Of a stretch of DNA of 35,803 bases, positions 5,344 through 14,878 are shown in pieces. The first letter of the stretch is position 1. Every line of letters starts with the position of its first letter. The notes under the pieces were generated by a model. The model was not told the DNA's origin and ran no database searches. It was given only the letters and a program-made list of their open reading frames with translations. Source of the stretch: Gemmatimonadota bacterium (GTDB lineage: Bacteria > Gemmatimonadota > Gemmatimonadetes > Gemmatimonadales > Gemmatimonadaceae); contig JAGWYS010000009.1 of NCBI GenBank assembly GCA_018969225.1, forward strand, positions 1 through 35,803. The letters run 5' to 3'. Both the position numbers and the translations under genes were made by a program.

Positions 5344-6278
5344 TCAGGGTGTCGTGAAGGAATCCGTCGCGTCGCCGGGGAGCCCGGCACGACGCGCCAC
5401 CAGCACACGGTCGCGACCAGCGAGGTCACGGACCAACCGCTCGACGGTCAGCCCCGCCCCGCGGGCCAGCGCCGCCGTGTCCGCCGCGCGTCGGGCGTCC
5501 ACTTCCAGCACCAACCAGCCGCCAGGCTCGAGGTGCGCGGCCGCCCCGGCACACAGGGCCCGATACCGGGCCATGCCGCCGTCCGCCGCGAACAGTGCCA
5601 CCGGCGGTTCCCAGTCGCGCACGCCGGCCGACAGCGCCGTCGCCTCGTCATACGCAATGTACGGTGGGTTGGCGACAATGATGCGCGCGCGGACACCGGC
5701 GAGCGGCGCGTAGTCCGCCCCCAGGCGAAACTCGACCGGCGCCATCGGGCGCCCGGTCGGGGGGCGGCGGGCCACGGCGTCAGCGTTGACGCGGGCCACC
5801 TCCAGCGCGTCGGCGGACACGTCCGTGGCGATGACCCGGGCTAACGCCCCCTCGGTCGCCAGGCTGAGCGCGATGGCCCCTGAGCCGGTGCCCACATCCA
5901 CCGCCACCCCGCCGGGGTGGGCGACCACGCACGCCAGAGCCTCCTCCACCACCCCCTCGGTCTCGGGGCGGGGGATCAACACCCGGGGATCCACCCGAAG
6001 CTCCAAGTGCCGGAACGCGGCCGTCCCCACGCAGTAGGCCAGCGGCTCGCCGGCGGCCCGCCGCACGGCGGCCGCCTCCACGCGCGCCACCGCCTCCGGC
6101 GTGAGGTCGTCGTCGGCCGACCGCCAGGCGGCGGGGGCGCGCCCCAGCACCGCGTCCACCAGCCAGCGCGCCTCGCGCGCGGCATCGGCGCGCACCTCCG
6201 GTTCGAGGCGGGGCGCCTGCGCCAGCCGCGCCGCCACGGCGGCGCGCAGCCCGGACAGGGTCGGGGGCGCCGCCACCG

Positions 6279-7349: not shown

Positions 7350-7520
7350 GCGGGGGCGGTGCGGGGAATGGGCGCGGGGCGCGACGGCGCACCTGCGCGA
7401 CGGCGCACCGGAACGGCGCGGAGGAACCGGGGCACGTGTCGTGCAACGCCACGCCCGGACCGGGGAGCGCGACTCCCGTCAGCCGCAGCCTCACCCAACG
7501 CGCCACGACAGCCGGATGCC

Positions 7521-8258
7521 GTGAAAGATAACGACCGCCACCCTGCGGCCGGCATCCCCGGCCTTCCCCTGGATCGCGTGGCCGAACTGCTGGCCACCGC
7601 GCCGCTGTTCCGCGAGCTCGACCGGGACGCGCTGCGCGCGCTGGCGCTGCGGGCCCGCGAGCAGAAGGTGCCGGCCGGGACCGTGGTGGTGGCGGCGGGG
7701 GAGCCGCCCGAGTGGCTGTCGCTGCTGCGCAGCGGGCGTGCGGAACTGTCGGTGCCCGCCGACGCCGGCGGCGGGGCGGTGCGGTTGCAGGAGCTGCACC
7801 CCGGGGCAGTGCTGGGCGAGCTGTCGATGCTGACCGGGCGGGCCGCGCTCACCCAGGTGGTGGCCACCGCGCCGGCCACCCTGCTGCAGCTGCGGCGCAG
7901 CGACCTGCGCCGCGTGGTGGACGAACAGCCGCGCGTGGCGTGGCACCTGGTGCGCGAGCTCGCCCGCCGCCTGCAACGCGCCGACGCCACCATCGGCAGC
8001 CTGGTGCTCCTGGATGCGCCGGGGCGCGTGGCGCGGCTGCTGCTGGAGCAGGCGCCCGCCGGAGAGCCGGCGCCGCTGGTGCGGCCCTTCACGCATCGGG
8101 CCATCGCGCGGCAGGTGGGGGCGCGCCGGGAGACCGTGACGCGCGCCCTGACCCGCTTCCGGGCGGCGGGGTACATCCGGACGGACCGGCGCCAGATCAC
8201 CATCACCAACCGGGGGGCGTTGGAGGCGCTGGCCACCCCGCGTGGGCGGACCCGCTGA
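7521..8258 (+). CDS. Crp/Fnr family transcriptional regulator
   Basis: cNMP-binding fold (LFRELDRDALRALALRAREQKVPAGTVVVAAGEPPEWLSLLRSGRAEL...GAVLGELSMLTG) and Crp-type HTH (IARQVGARRETVTRALTRFRAAGYI). GTG start assumed. Confidence 0.88.
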   Translation: MKDNDRHPAAGIPGLPLDRVAELLATAPLFRELDRDALRALALRAREQKVPAGTVVVAAGEPPEWLSLLRSGRAELSVPADAGGGAVRLQELHPGAVLGELSMLTGRAALTQVVATAPATLLQLRRSDLRRVVDEQPRVAWHLVRELARRLQRADATIGSLVLLDAPGRVARLLLEQAPAGEPAPLVRPFTHRAIARQVGARRETVTRALTRFRAAGYIRTDRRQITITNRGALEALATPRGRTR

Positions 8259-8282: not shown

Positions 8283-9878
8283 TCAGGGGAGCGGCGCCCC
8301 CCACCCTCCGCCTCCAGGCGTCTCGATCGTGAGGCAGTCGCCCGGTTGCATGGTCACGCGGCACTTGGCCGGGAGCACCGCGTCATTGAGGCGGTTGATG
8401 CCACAGGCGCCTGGCAGGCCGCCGGCGGCGCCGGGGGGCGGGCGGCGACGCCGCTCGGACAGCACGGTGGCCACGCACGGCTCCAGCGCCTCGTAGCAGC
8501 GCACCACGCCGTCCCCGCCGCGGTGCCGCCCCTCCCCCCCGCTGCCGCGCCGCACCGCATAGGCCGCGACCCGCAGGGGATACGCCCGCTCCAGCGCCTC
8601 GACAGGGGTATTGCGGGTGTTGCTCATCCCCACGTGCACCGCCGAAGGCCCTGGGCCGGCAGCGCTTGCCCCCTGCCCGCCGCCCAAGGTCTCGTAGAAG
8701 CTCCATCCGGGAGCGCCCAGCGTGACGTTGTTCATGGTCCCCTGCCCAGCCGCCGGGATGGCCAGCCCCTCCACACCCCGCGACGCCGCCGCGCGAGCCA
8801 GCGCGGCCAGGCAGGTGTCGGTGAGCCGCTGTGACAGCTCCACGTTGCCGGCCGCCACCGCACTGGGGCGCCGCGCATTGGCCACGCAGTCCACGGGGAT
8901 CGACAGGCGCAGGGCGCGGGCGATGCCGTCGTTGACGGGCACTTCATCATCGCACAGCACCCGCAGCACGAACACCGCCGCGGCCCGGGCCACGGCGGCC
9001 GGCGCATTGACATTGCCGGGCACAGCCGGGCTGGTCCCCGTCAGGTCGAGGTGCAGTGTCGCCTCCCGCACCGACGCCCGCACCACCACCGGGATCTCCC
9101 GGTCACCGACACCGTCCCCTTCCAGTGCGTCTTCGGCCGTCCCGTCGGCCCCCTCCAGCCCCGCCAGGCGGGCGCGCACGCGCCGTTCGGTGTAGTCCAG
9201 CAGCGCGTCGATGGCGCGGGTCAGGGGCCCGCCACCCAGCCGCCGGTGTAGCGCCCGCCACCCCTCGCGCCCCGCCGCACAGGCGGCGCGCTGGGCGCGC
9301 AGGTCGCCATCGCGCTCGGCCGGCGTGCGCACGTTGGCGAGCAGCAGGCGGCGCACATCGTCCTGGGGGCGCCCGGCACGCTCCAGGCGCACGGGCGGCA
9401 CGATGATCCCCTCCTGGTACAGCTCGGTGGCGCCGAAGGGCATGCTCCCCGGGCTCATCCCCCCCACGTCGGCATGGTGCGCCCGCACGGCGGCGTACCC
9501 GATGACGGCCGTCGGATCGCCGGGATCGGCGATGGCCTCGACCATCGTGAGGTCGGGGAGGTGCGATCCCCCATGGGCGGGATCGTTGAGCAGGAACAGG
9601 TCGCCCGCCTCGGCACCCGCCGCGCGTACGGCCGCCACCGCCTCGGGCATGGCCCCCAGATGCACGGGAATGTGGGCCGCCTGCGCCACCATCCGACCGG
9701 CGGCGTCGAAGAGCGCGCAGGAGGCGTCGCGCCGCTCACGGATGTTGGGGGAGAGGGCGCTGCGCTCCAGCAACGTCCCCATCTCCTCGGCCAGCATGGC
9801 CACCCCCTGCGCAAAGACGGTGAGCTCCAGCGGATCGAAGCGATCGGCCAGGGCCGGTTCGGCGACGTCGCCCGTCAT
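8283..9878 (-). CDS. hyuB: Hydantoinase B / oxoprolinase family subunit (HyuB)
   Basis: 531 aa; DPLELTVFAQGVAMLAEEMGTLLERSALSPNIRERRDASCALFDAAGRMVAQAAHIPVHLGAM, NDPAHGGSHLPDLTM, C-terminal GDCLTIETPGGGGWGAP. Confidence 0.93.
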   Translation of the reverse strand: MTGDVAEPALADRFDPLELTVFAQGVAMLAEEMGTLLERSALSPNIRERRDASCALFDAAGRMVAQAAHIPVHLGAMPEAVAAVRAAGAEAGDLFLLNDPAHGGSHLPDLTMVEAIADPGDPTAVIGYAAVRAHHADVGGMSPGSMPFGATELYQEGIIVPPVRLERAGRPQDDVRRLLLANVRTPAERDGDLRAQRAACAAGREGWRALHRRLGGGPLTRAIDALLDYTERRVRARLAGLEGADGTAEDALEGDGVGDREIPVVVRASVREATLHLDLTGTSPAVPGNVNAPAAVARAAAVFVLRVLCDDEVPVNDGIARALRLSIPVDCVANARRPSAVAAGNVELSQRLTDTCLAALARAAASRGVEGLAIPAAGQGTMNNVTLGAPGWSFYETLGGGQGASAAGPGPSAVHVGMSNTRNTPVEALERAYPLRVAAYAVRRGSGGEGRHRGGDGVVRCYEALEPCVATVLSERRRRPPPGAAGGLPGACGINRLNDAVLPAKCRVTMQPGDCLTIETPGGGGWGAPLP

Positions 9879-10534
9879 GTGCCCCCCGGTGTGGAGATGG
9901 GCCGTGCGCCATGCGGCAGGCCGGCGCGGTGCAACGCCTCCTCGCAGCGCGCCATCCAGAGGGCCTGCAGCTCCGCCATGCGCGCCCCGCGCCCTCGGTC
10001 AGGAGCCATGGACAGGAGCCCCTGCGCCGATGGGTGCGGCAGTGGTGCCAGCACCAGCCCCTGGGAGCCCTCGGTGTCCATCACCCGGGCCATGGTGCGT
10101 GCCGCCACCCGCCCCAGCGCCACCACGCCCTGCACTCCCCGGGCGCGCAGCGCCGTCAGGTCGCGGTCGAGCCGGGAGAGGTTGGCCGGCCCCTCCAGCT
10201 CCGCGCGCGTGGGGGCGCGGAAGCGGTGTCCGTCATTGGTGGGACAGGCAGGCCAGGCGTTACCCACGGCCACCCCGTGCAGCAGCGGCTCCAACCCGTC
10301 GGCCGCCAGCCGGGCGCCATCCCACGGCCCGTCAGCGACCCTGGCTGGCACCGTGGCAGCGCCCACGCGCTCCAGCACGGCATAGAGCAACGCCCCCGCC
10401 GCATCACCCCAGAACGGGATGCCGCTCTTGTCGGCGCCACGCGGTCCCGGCGCCTCTCCCACCACCAGCACGTGCACCGGGCCGGTGGACGGGGCATGCA
10501 TGGGCACCGCGGCGCCGCGGATGCGCCCGCTCAC
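9875..10534 (-). CDS. Uracil-DNA glycosylase superfamily protein (UDG-like, no complete Fe-S cysteine set)
   Basis: HVLVVGEAPGPRGADKSGIPFWGDAAGALLYAVLERVG (motif A type), GNAWPACPTNDGHRFRAPTRAEL, VVALGRVAA, LPHPSAQGL (motif B type). Start chosen at GTG 10534 (4-nt overlap with hyuA). Confidence 0.78.
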   Translation of the reverse strand: MSGRIRGAAVPMHAPSTGPVHVLVVGEAPGPRGADKSGIPFWGDAAGALLYAVLERVGAATVPARVADGPWDGARLAADGLEPLLHGVAVGNAWPACPTNDGHRFRAPTRAELEGPANLSRLDRDLTALRARGVQGVVALGRVAARTMARVMDTEGSQGLVLAPLPHPSAQGLLSMAPDRGRGARMAELQALWMARCEEALHRAGLPHGARPISTPGGT

Positions 10535-12501
10535 CGGTCCGCCTCCAGCATCCAGCCGCCCTGCGGCATGGCGCGCCCGGTCCACCCGGCGGGGATGTGC
10601 ATCGTGGCATCTGGGAGGCGCACCACGGCTGGTCCGCGCACGGTGCGGTCCATCATCCGCCCATCATCAACCTCGGCGGGCATCGTCCCCGCACGCTCAG
10701 GGCGCCGCCACGCCACCGGCCAGGGCGTCCCTTCCAGCGCCACCCGCACGCTGATCGCCTCCACGGGCCTCGGCAGTACGAAGCCCGTGCGCGCCGCATG
10801 CCGTTCGGCAAACCGGCGGGCGATGGCCGCCCCGTCGTCACCAGGGGCCACGGGGAGGTCGATCTCATGCCCCTGCCCTTCGTAGCGCACGCGCATCCAC
10901 CAGCGGGGGATGGCGCCCGGGGCGACGCCCAACCCGGCCGCTGCCGCCGTGAGGAGGCGCGCCAGCGCGTCGGCCTCGAGGGCGTCGGTGCGCGCCAGGC
11001 AGCTGACCAGCGCCTCGCGGCGCTCCGGTGCCATGGCCAACCCGAGTGCGCTCAGCACCCCCGCGTGGGGCGGCACCACCACGCGAGTCATCCCCAACCG
11101 CTCGGCGAGTCCGCAGGCATGCAGCGGGCCGCCCCCCCCGAATGCGACCAGCGGCACCTGCCGCGGATCGATGCCGCGCTCCACCGACACCCGGCGCAGG
11201 GCGCGCGCCATCGTGGCATCCGCGGTGGCCACCAGCGCCTCGGCGGCCCGTGCCACCGTCACCCCCAACGGGTCCGCCAGGGTGCCGATGGCGGCGGCCG
11301 CCCGGTCCACATCAATGGTCACCCCGCCGCTCCAGCCGCCCGGCGGGATGCGCCCCAACACCACGTGGGCATCGGTGACGGTGGGGCGCACGCCGCCGCG
11401 CCCGTACGCGGCCGGCCCGGGCGCCGCCCCGGCGCTCTCCGGACCCGCCCGCAAGGCGCCGCCTGCGTCTATCCATCCCAGGCTGCCGCCTCCGGCCGCC
11501 ACCGCCTCCACCAGCACCCGAGGCAACGCGATCGGGATGCCCGCCACGCCGCCGCCGCGCTCCACCAGCGGCTCCCCCTCGTCAATCAACCCGACATCGG
11601 CGCTGGTGCCGCCGATGTCGATGGTGAGGGCGCGAGGAATGCCAAGGGCCCGCGCGACGGCGGCCGCGCCGGTCACCCCACCGGCAGGCCCCGACAGCGC
11701 CAACGCCGCCGCGTGCCGGGCAGCCTCGTTGGCCGCCAGCGTGCCGCCCGCCGACGTCATCACGCGGGGGGCGGGGAAGCCACGCGCCGCCAACCGCGCG
11801 CCCAGCGCCTCGAGGTAGCGTCGCACGGCGGGGCGCGCGTACGCCTCCGCCACCGTCGTGGCCATCCGCTCGTACTCGCGAATCTCGGGGAGCACCTCGT
11901 GCGAGCAGATCACGTCGGGGGGCGACGGCAAGTCGGCACAGCCGTCCACCAGCGCGTTGCGCAGCTGCCGTTCGTGGCGCGGGTCGGCGTAGGCGTGCAG
12001 CAGGGTGATGGCCACCGTGTCCGGGACCGCCGCACGGACCGCCGCCACCACCGACGCCGTCGCCTCCGGCGAGAGGGGGCGCAGCACACCCGTCTGCACC
12101 AGCCGCTCGTCCACCGGCACCACGGCCTCCGACGGCACCAACGGCGACGGATGATGCCGCGTGAGATCGTACAGGTGGGCCCGCTCCTGCCGGCGCAGCT
12201 CCAGCAGGTCGGTGAAGCCCGCCGTCGCGCACGCCGTCACGCGGGCCCCACGCCGCTCCAACAGGAGGTTGGTGACCACCGTGGTGCCGTGCGCCAGGTG
12301 GGCGATGGCCCCGCCGTCGATGCCCGCGGCATCCAGCGACGCCAGAACCCCCGCGGCCCGATCTTCTGGGACCGACAGCACCTTGGCGGTGAAGACGGTG
12401 CCGTCGGGGTGCACGGCCGCGAGATCCGTGAAGGTGCCCCCCACATCAATGCCCACCGCGACCCCGTGGGTGGGGGCCGCTCGATGCGCGGGAGCGGTCA
12501 C
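10531..12501 (-). CDS. hyuA: Hydantoinase A / oxoprolinase family subunit (HyuA)
   Basis: GVAVGIDVGGTFTDLAAVHPDGTVFTAKVLSVPED, HGTTVVTNLLLERRGARV, ALTIDIGGTSADVGLIDEG, LVAFGGGGPLHACGLAERLGM. GTG start at 12501. Confidence 0.94.
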   Translation of the reverse strand: MTAPAHRAAPTHGVAVGIDVGGTFTDLAAVHPDGTVFTAKVLSVPEDRAAGVLASLDAAGIDGGAIAHLAHGTTVVTNLLLERRGARVTACATAGFTDLLELRRQERAHLYDLTRHHPSPLVPSEAVVPVDERLVQTGVLRPLSPEATASVVAAVRAAVPDTVAITLLHAYADPRHERQLRNALVDGCADLPSPPDVICSHEVLPEIREYERMATTVAEAYARPAVRRYLEALGARLAARGFPAPRVMTSAGGTLAANEAARHAAALALSGPAGGVTGAAAVARALGIPRALTIDIGGTSADVGLIDEGEPLVERGGGVAGIPIALPRVLVEAVAAGGGSLGWIDAGGALRAGPESAGAAPGPAAYGRGGVRPTVTDAHVVLGRIPPGGWSGGVTIDVDRAAAAIGTLADPLGVTVARAAEALVATADATMARALRRVSVERGIDPRQVPLVAFGGGGPLHACGLAERLGMTRVVVPPHAGVLSALGLAMAPERREALVSCLARTDALEADALARLLTAAAAGLGVAPGAIPRWWMRVRYEGQGHEIDLPVAPGDDGAAIARRFAERHAARTGFVLPRPVEAISVRVALEGTPWPVAWRRPERAGTMPAEVDDGRMMDRTVRGPAVVRLPDATMHIPAGWTGRAMPQGGWMLEADR

Positions 12502-13874
12502 GCCTGGCCCGGGAGGCGCCCGGACGGGCGGTGCCAGAGCGCCGCCAGCAGCGCCACCAGAACGGGTGCCACCAGCGCCGGCACCTCGTGACCCCCTTGC
12601 CGCCACGCGGGAAGCTGGGCGGCTGCGGCCCCCGCCAGGGAGAGCGCCACCAGCAGGGCCATCACGCCTCGCGCACTGCGGGCGCTCCCGCCGGGGCGCC
12701 ACAGGGCGGCCGGCACCAGCACCGCCGCCACGAGCCAAAGCGGATGCACCTGCAGCAGAGCCAGGTTGCGACCCATGTAGGGGGCATGCCGAGTTACGGT
12801 GCCGGCCAGCAGCAGGGCGGTCCCCAGGACACCGCCCATCCCAAGCCAGGCTCCGGCCAGCACCGCGGCCAGCTGCGCGCCGCGGCGGCCGCCCCGCTCC
12901 GCCAGCCCGAGCACCAGGGTGCCCAGCAGCGCGCCAACCAGCAGCGCCTGCGGCCACCGGCGCGGCGGGGCCGCGGGGAGCGGTGCGCGCGCCGATGCCG
13001 CAAGGACCGAGTCGGCCGCCACCAACAGGCGCCCGGGCACGCCACCGGTCCCGTCGGGGCCGGGCTCCCCCTCGGCAAGGCGCAGCTGCGCCAGCTGGTC
13101 CGCCAGGTGCTCCGGCAGGAAGGCCGCCTGCCACCGCGTGAGCGGGAGGTCCGCATCGCGCCCCAGCGCGAGGTCGATCCCCGCCCAGGCGGAGAGACTG
13201 ACGGCGGTGACACGCACCGACTCGCCGCGCCACGTGAGCCCGGCCGGGTGGGTGACGGCCCACGCGCGCCGGAGGACCCCTCCCAAGGCCCAGTCGAGGA
13301 GGTCGCGCACGCGGGTGCTGCAGTTGTCGTTGTAGTAGTCGTACCGGTAGTAGCGGTTCTCCTCGGCGGCGTTCCACGCGACGTAGTCGGCCACCGCCCC
13401 GCGTTGCAGCGGCGTCAGCGCCAGCGCCTGCGCGCGGATGCGCCGGTCCCGCTCGGCGTACACCGTGTTGAACAGCAGCATGGGGTAGCCGGCCATCCAG
13501 TACCGCGTGTCGCCGGTGAGGAAGCGCCCCACGAAGTTCGGCTGGTTGAAGTCGAACATCCCCCAGTTGTAGGCAACCGCCTCGCCCGTGACGGTGTCCT
13601 CGACCGCCAGCGCCACGTGGCCGAAGCGCTCGAAGACGGCGTCACCGGGGCCGTAGGTGTACAGGGTGATGCGCAGCCGAGCCCCGCGCGCCGCGCGGGC
13701 GCTGTCGAGGGACGGGAACGTTCCCGGCGGGGGCGGCGGCGCCGTGGCCGGCACGTTGTCCGGCCGGACCGCCGCCTGCGGGGTGGCCTCCGCCATCACG
13801 GGCGCGACCAGCAGGGGCAGGGCGCCCACCGCGCGCCGGAGGCGCGCCAGCAGCCCCGCGCTGGGGCGCCGCAT
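12498..13874 (-). CDS. DUF4105 (Lnb N-terminal-like) protein with C-terminal multi-TM region
   Basis: Signal peptide; LRITLYTYGPGDAVFERFGHVALAVEDTVTGEAVAYNWGMFDFNQPNFVGRFLTGDTRYWM...YYRYDYYNDNCSTRVRDLLD; hydrophobic C-terminal helices. Confidence 0.82.
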   Translation of the reverse strand: MRRPSAGLLARLRRAVGALPLLVAPVMAEATPQAAVRPDNVPATAPPPPPGTFPSLDSARAARGARLRITLYTYGPGDAVFERFGHVALAVEDTVTGEAVAYNWGMFDFNQPNFVGRFLTGDTRYWMAGYPMLLFNTVYAERDRRIRAQALALTPLQRGAVADYVAWNAAEENRYYRYDYYNDNCSTRVRDLLDWALGGVLRRAWAVTHPAGLTWRGESVRVTAVSLSAWAGIDLALGRDADLPLTRWQAAFLPEHLADQLAQLRLAEGEPGPDGTGGVPGRLLVAADSVLAASARAPLPAAPPRRWPQALLVGALLGTLVLGLAERGGRRGAQLAAVLAGAWLGMGGVLGTALLLAGTVTRHAPYMGRNLALLQVHPLWLVAAVLVPAALWRPGGSARSARGVMALLVALSLAGAAAAQLPAWRQGGHEVPALVAPVLVALLAALWHRPSGRLPGQA

Positions 13875-14878
13875 CAGAAGCGGTGCTCCTTCCCGTCGTC
13901 GGCCGCCTTGTAGCTCGCGTCCACGATGCGCTGCAGCTGGAGCTGGTCCACGGGGGGCTCGTAGGGCGCGTCGCCGCGGATCACGGCCACGAAGTGCGCC
14001 AACTCCGCCCGGTAGCTCTGGAGGAAGGGGCTCTCGCGCGCCGCCGCCCCGGACGGGGACACGTCCACGGGGCGCCCGTTGAGCTCCTTGGTCACGCGCA
14101 GCGGAGCCAGCCGGCCACTGCCGCGCGTGCCGTGCACCTCGAACCACCAGCGGTCCTCGTCCCCGACGTACGCCCACGACACCGAGAGGTCCACCACGAT
14201 GCCGCCGTCGCACTCGAGGAACAGCTGCAGCCCATCCTCCACCGCCGCCGCCCCGCGCGCCCGGCGCACGGCGGCGGAGAGGCGCACGGGCGCCGGCTGG
14301 TCCGCCAGCCACAGCGCGAGGTCAAGGAGCGGGATCCCCAGCTCCTGCAGCGCGCCGCCCCCCGATTCCGGGCGGTTGGCGCGCCACCCCGGGGTGGCCG
14401 CCCGCCGCTGCAGCGCCCCCGCGCGTATCGCCACGATCTCGCCCAATTCGGCGTTGCGCAGGAACTGCCCCAGCGCCTGCACGTCGGCGCGGAACCGGTG
14501 GTTGTGCCCCACCACGAGGCACCGGTCCGCCTTCTGCGCGGCGGCCAGGCACCGTTCCACGCCCCGGCCGCCCAGCGCGAGCGGACGCTCGCACAGCACG
14601 TGCAGCTTCTTGCGGAGCGCGCTGAGGACGTGGGGCTCGTGGAGGTGGTTGGGGGTGGCGATCACGACGGCGTCCGCAACGTCGCTGTCGAGCAGCTCCT
14701 CGACATCGGTGAACACGTCGGGCACCCCGAACCGGTCGGCCAGGGCGCGGGCCTTGGCCCCGTCGTTGTCGCACAGTGCGGCCAGCACGGCGCCCTTCTG
14801 CCGCGCCAGCAGCGGGATGTGCGTGAGCTGGGCGATGGCGCCCGCGCCCACCACGGCGATGCGCACGCCGTCCTTCAT
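13874..14878 (-). CDS. Gfo/Idh/MocA family NAD(P)-dependent oxidoreductase
   Basis: MKDGVRIAVVGAGAIAQLTHIPLLARQKGAVLAALCDND, DAVVIATPNHLHEPHVLSALRKKLHVLCERPLAL. Purine-rich ggagga just upstream of ATG. Confidence 0.9.
   Translation of the reverse strand: MKDGVRIAVVGAGAIAQLTHIPLLARQKGAVLAALCDNDGAKARALADRFGVPDVFTDVEELLDSDVADAVVIATPNHLHEPHVLSALRKKLHVLCERPLALGGRGVERCLAAAQKADRCLVVGHNHRFRADVQALGQFLRNAELGEIVAIRAGALQRRAATPGWRANRPESGGGALQELGIPLLDLALWLADQPAPVRLSAAVRRARGAAAVEDGLQLFLECDGGIVVDLSVSWAYVGDEDRWWFEVHGTRGSGRLAPLRVTKELNGRPVDVSPSGAAARESPFLQSYRAELAHFVAVIRGDAPYEPPVDQLQLQRIVDASYKAADDGKEHRF

Follow-up and report, generated by a model that had tools for sequence, protein, structure and literature searches.

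A uracil-DNA glycosylase-superfamily gene between the hydantoinase subunit genes hyuA and hyuB in two genera of Gemmatimonadaceae

What is a gene of the uracil-DNA glycosylase (UDG) superfamily doing between hyuA and hyuB, the genes for the two subunits of a hydantoinase/oxoprolinase? The question is raised by a stretch of 35,803 nucleotides from a Gemmatimonadota bacterium of the family Gemmatimonadaceae (GenBank assembly GCA_018969225.1, contig JAGWYS010000009.1), referred to here as the window. Our answer, to which we give a probability of about 0.72, is that the gene encodes a second, competent and probably uracil-specific DNA glycosylase that hitch-hikes in the hyuAB operon, co-expressed with it and outside the HyuAB reaction. 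A first-pass annotation, made from the sequence alone, had described the order hyuA-UDG-hyuB with overlaps at 10531-10534 and 9875-9878, and this is borne out by the translations, the raw sequence and Pfam. The features are these:

12501-10531, minus strand: hyuA, ATP-dependent hydantoinase/oxoprolinase alpha subunit, 656 amino acids, GTG start (Pfam and nucleotide motifs)
10534-9875, minus strand: UDG-superfamily gene between hyuA and hyuB, 219 amino acids, GTG start (PF03167, predicted fold, invariant residues)
9878-8283, minus strand: hyuB, hydantoinase/oxoprolinase beta subunit, 531 amino acids, ATG start (Pfam and metal tetrad)
10534-10531, minus strand: GTGA, 4-base overlap of the hyuA stop TGA and the UDG start GTG (raw sequence)
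9878-9875, minus strand: ATGA, 4-base overlap of the UDG stop TGA and the hyuB start ATG (raw sequence)

An alternative start for the UDG gene is an ATG at about 10497-10501. HyuA exceeds the Pfam cut-offs for Hydant_A_N (139 bits) and Hydantoinase_A (278.5 bits), as does HyuB that for Hydantoinase_B (583.6 bits). The UDG protein reaches 48.2 bits against PF03167 (UDG; curated cut-off 24.3), and its predicted model (predicted local distance difference test score, pLDDT, 94.8) has the UDG fold; on both counts it belongs to the superfamily.

Conservation and origin of the gene order

A homolog search with the UDG protein across 395 genomes of the phylum Gemmatimonadota returned close homologs in two genera: the window's own, with 22 further genomes (53-62% identity), and a second one, with four (52-57%). 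HyuA lies on one flank and HyuB on the other at 26 of these 26 loci, and the same sandwich order is found in named contigs, mostly from Gemmatimonas or from metagenome-assembled genomes (MAGs) of Gemmatimonadaceae. Recurrence in these 26 genomes from two genera, and in the named Gemmatimonas contigs, makes the arrangement more than chance. A strain-specific oddity or an assembly artefact is thereby ruled out, and the restriction to one strain or species for which the first-pass annotation had allowed is not what we found. As far as the flanks reach, the fetched genomes share the syntenic block hemL - SpoIID - Gfo/Idh - Lnb - hyuA - UDG - hyuB - prfA - prmC. The hyuA/UDG junction is exactly -4 in 17 of 25 loci and the UDG/hyuB junction in 15 of 25, figures that are biased towards overlap by taking the start codon nearest the junction. 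One other member of the genus (G366) has no UDG match; its contig ends within hyuA and hyuB is absent too, so that this is a case of missing data and does not count as gene loss. The record titles of four loci (L052, L060, L063 and L074), which name Candidatus Kuenenia and Akkermansia, are at odds with their sequences. L052 is a Gemmatimonas-type locus that carries the sandwich, and the MAG names look wrong.

The UDG gene is under purifying selection, weaker than that on hyuA and hyuB. In close pairs (synonymous divergence, Ks, below about 0.8), its ratio of nonsynonymous to synonymous substitution (dN/dS) is approximately 0.08-0.36, and the same pairs give 0.07-0.13 for HyuA and 0.02-0.07 for HyuB. 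Eight residues (G26, E27, A28, F41, D44, N92, C97 and H167) are invariant in 53 homologs drawn from Gemmatimonadota, Verrucomicrobiota, Acidobacteriota and Myxococcota, and C97 is the sole conserved Cys among them. Together, dN/dS and the invariant residues rule out a pseudogene.

HyuB homologs are present in 96 of the 148 searched genomes of the family. Seven loci from six other Gemmatimonadaceae genera carry the same block with hyuB directly after hyuA and no UDG gene between them, as do further loci. Of 12 distinct Gemmatimonadaceae loci without the UDG gene, 9 have hyuA and hyuB overlapping by 4 bases. In outgroup families, both within the order and within the class, the two genes likewise stand next to each other. 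A single branch of the HyuB tree parts the sandwich from the adjacent loci (support 100/99), and one change suffices. With only that change needed on the HyuB tree, and with a UDG-free block in other genera, a single insertion of the UDG gene is the most likely history; it would have taken place in a common ancestor of the two genera, at the point where the members of an already coupled hyuA-hyuB pair overlapped. The polarity of the insertion was read from hyuA-hyuB adjacency in the outgroup families; the UDG tree, which with outgroups added was rooted within genus g1 and had very long branches there, was left unused. An insertion kept by the operon had been one of two readings offered in the first-pass annotation, and it gains support here: the insertion is single and old, and purifying selection has maintained it. 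As to a mobile source, the Geothrix homolog had no plasmid match, PHROGs gave no hit, and no UDG relative was found in viral contigs, annotated phage records not having been searched.

On its upstream side the block continues with a gene for an Lnb_N-domain (DUF4105-type) membrane protein (window 12498-13900, minus strand; PF13387, 68 bits). It evolves rapidly (approximately 50% identity within the two genera), and its position in the block is kept. By open reading frame coordinates, its junction with hyuA is a further overlap:

12498-12501, minus strand: 4-base overlap of the Lnb_N gene stop and the hyuA start

The operon therefore probably starts further upstream than hyuA. On the other side, a gene for a Crp/Fnr-type regulator (window 7500-8258, plus strand) lies between hyuB and prfA, convergent to hyuB; a similar sequence stands at the same place in some relatives only. 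Rfam had no match within the window.

Homologs elsewhere and the question of a shared pathway

In HyuA, the nucleotide motifs DxGGT and GxxPGP are intact, and HyuB retains an Asp-His-Asp-His metal tetrad, a site known from caprolactamase and hydantoinases (PMC8453981). These residues make it probable that HyuAB is active as an ATP-dependent hydrolase of cyclic amides. An active hydrolase, together with the tight coupling of three genes and its conservation in two genera, would suit a joint pathway in which hydantoin-type lesions are freed from DNA by the glycosylase and the freed ring is then opened by HyuAB, the functional link that had been put forward from the sequence alone. In Gemmatimonas, the UDG clade would then be in a real partnership with HyuAB, and the ring-damaged base would be released, opened and recycled by a three-gene translationally coupled unit. 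We regard the pathway as highly improbable, and the partnership in Gemmatimonas as equally so. HyuAB is conserved in other genera that lack the UDG gene between its own, UDG is conserved in other phyla away from HyuAB, and the pocket residues described below are those that serve uracil in family-4 enzymes; the proposed link is left unsupported. The main glycosylases for hydantoin lesions are of the Nei and Nth types. UDG-fold enzymes are not known to be among them, which we count as a further point against the pathway.

Outside the two genera, UDG homologs occur in Verrucomicrobiota, Acidobacteriota, Myxococcota and other Gemmatimonadaceae. None of those from other phyla has hyuAB beside it in the fetched flanks (up to 8 kb, shorter at contig ends), and those from the other Gemmatimonadaceae were likewise not found next to it. 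Their neighbours include an M16 peptidase, an RluA-type pseudouridine synthase, FabG and MetH in Acidobacteriota and oligoendopeptidase F in Verrucomicrobiota; in genus g18 the neighbour is a heptose epimerase. One genome (G031) encodes both the UDG homolog and HyuAB, far apart, which again argues against a joint pathway. The suggestion that the homolog is usually located elsewhere thus holds outside the two genera; within them, the gene is beside hyuAB at every locus found. A functional UDG-HyuAB unit would be expected to keep its genes together across lineages, and they are together in these two genera only. Within Gemmatimonadaceae, the UDG clade has a more distant branch (L153 and L154, about 5540-6240, plus strand; 35% identity), which keeps GEAPG, GD, the Asn and HPS and lies away from hyuAB.

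In Myxococcota, an endonuclease IV (nfo) gene is close to the UDG homolog in three of three loci, adjoining and divergent in one:

L065, 4712-5809: endonuclease IV (nfo) gene
L071, 6962-7813: endonuclease IV (nfo) gene
L077, 5336-6241: endonuclease IV (nfo) gene

Endonuclease IV acts directly after a DNA glycosylase, and its proximity here is a clue that points to base-excision repair.

The predicted base pocket and a proposed mechanism

In Tth UDGa, the pocket for uracil is shaped, and the leaving base stabilised, by E41, F54, N80 and H155, all of which matter by mutation, and N89 positions the water (PMC5387724). In our alignment, the first four correspond to E27, F41, N92 and H167 of the window protein. 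We propose that, after a single entry into the overlapping hyuA-hyuB junction, the UDG gene, now flanked by 4-base overlaps on both sides, has probably been co-transcribed and translationally coupled with hyuAB, its product acting independently. Uracil in DNA would be flipped into the pocket of E27, F41 and N92, H167 would stabilise the leaving base, and the resulting abasic site would pass to base-excision repair. HyuAB would continue its own ATP-driven hydrolysis of cyclic amides, as in relatives without the UDG gene.

Some points weigh against this account. Though the order could have changed, all sampled members of the two genera retain the sandwich, and a functional link would also explain this. 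The equivalent of the water-positioning N89 falls, in an uncertain part of the alignment, at position 101, where 47 of the 53 members have Asp and 6 have Asn. Lastly, the proximity of endonuclease IV is a post hoc clue from a single lineage.

It is also conceivable that this UDG-fold enzyme works on free nucleosides or nucleotides and feeds HyuAB or another metabolic step. Its place in a metabolic operon and its lack of the N-terminal extension that families 4 and 5 carry would fit such a role, which we nonetheless think very unlikely: motif A and the HPS that begins the DNA-intercalating motif B are kept in the 53 members, and the relatives are not beside nucleoside-metabolism genes.

The locus cautions against inferring shared function from operon neighbourhood. 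It is also a tidy example of insertion into a coupled pair of subunit genes that overlap: overlaps stand on both sides afterwards, and the inserted gene has been kept across two genera.

Comparison with known glycosylases and hydantoinases

To place the UDG protein among known enzymes, we aligned it with family-4, family-5 and UdgX proteins from the same phylum. It reached no UDG model in NCBIfam. Its matches in Foldseek span all UDG families; the top match is 2d3y (Tth UDGb, family 5; E-value 1.2e-8, 26% identity, template modelling score 0.63), followed by UdgX, and in a sequence search, too, the nearest solved structure is this Thermus family-5 enzyme.

Family 4 (UDGa; TIGR00758, Tth UDGa 1ui0) shares with the window protein motif A, GE(A/G)PG, here GEAPG, as well as the Phe of the PF motif, the Asn of the TN motif (N92) and the His of motif B (H167). 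The window protein, however, scores 28.9 bits against a TIGR00758 cut-off of 125.3, has a loop one residue longer with GD, and reads HPSAQGLL in motif B where family 4 has HPAAVL. The N-terminal extension and the 4Fe-4S (iron-sulfur) cluster cysteines, borne by families 4 and 5 and UdgX (PMC10359453, PMC5295032), are both lacking. A canonical family-4 UDG is encoded elsewhere in the window's genome, and the window protein is therefore an additional enzyme; sampled members of the genus each have at least two UDG-superfamily genes.

Family 5 (UDGb; Tth UDGb 2d3y) has the same spacing, G..PG..G....G.PF.GD, with the same loop length and GD. These likenesses, the nearest solved structure and a host that already owns a family-4 UDG would be consistent with a broader DNA glycosylase that, like family-5 enzymes, has hypoxanthine, xanthine or other deaminated bases as substrates and is not chiefly an enzyme for uracil. 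We consider this unlikely, given that motif A retains the Glu of family 4 (GEAPG in all 53 members) and that the Asn in contact with uracil is present; the family-5 counterparts are Leu (GLAP) and Ala, respectively. It also differs from family 5 in lacking the Fe-S cysteines and the N-terminal region that bears RKRA. UdgX (TIGR03914), the second-best fold match, resembles it in the GE.PG motif A and the N.A motif. In contrast, the window protein has no KRRIH loop and no Fe-S cysteines, Ala replaces Gln in motif A, and the score is 17.6 bits where the cut-off is 190. With the KRRIH loop and the motif A Gln both absent, identity with UdgX was rejected.

A family-5 enzyme without its Fe-S N-terminus retains approximately 60% activity (PMC5295032), and an Fe-S-free enzyme is therefore credible. 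We place the protein in an apparently undescribed, Fe-S-free UDG clade near families 4 and 5. Our literature search found no prior description of a UDG-hydantoinase operon, only passing mentions, and for Gemmatimonas with UDG only a match with an unrelated title. By joining family-4 recognition residues with a family-5 loop, the clade could shed light on the divergence of families 4 and 5 and on the contribution of the Fe-S cluster.

The HyuAB pair, for its part, aligns over its full length with caprolactamase CapAB (6yra) and N-methylhydantoinase (7hk5), with which it shares the nucleotide motifs of HyuA and the metal tetrad of HyuB. It differs from them in falling below the named equivalog cut-offs, and in that a foreign gene parts the genes of its two subunits.

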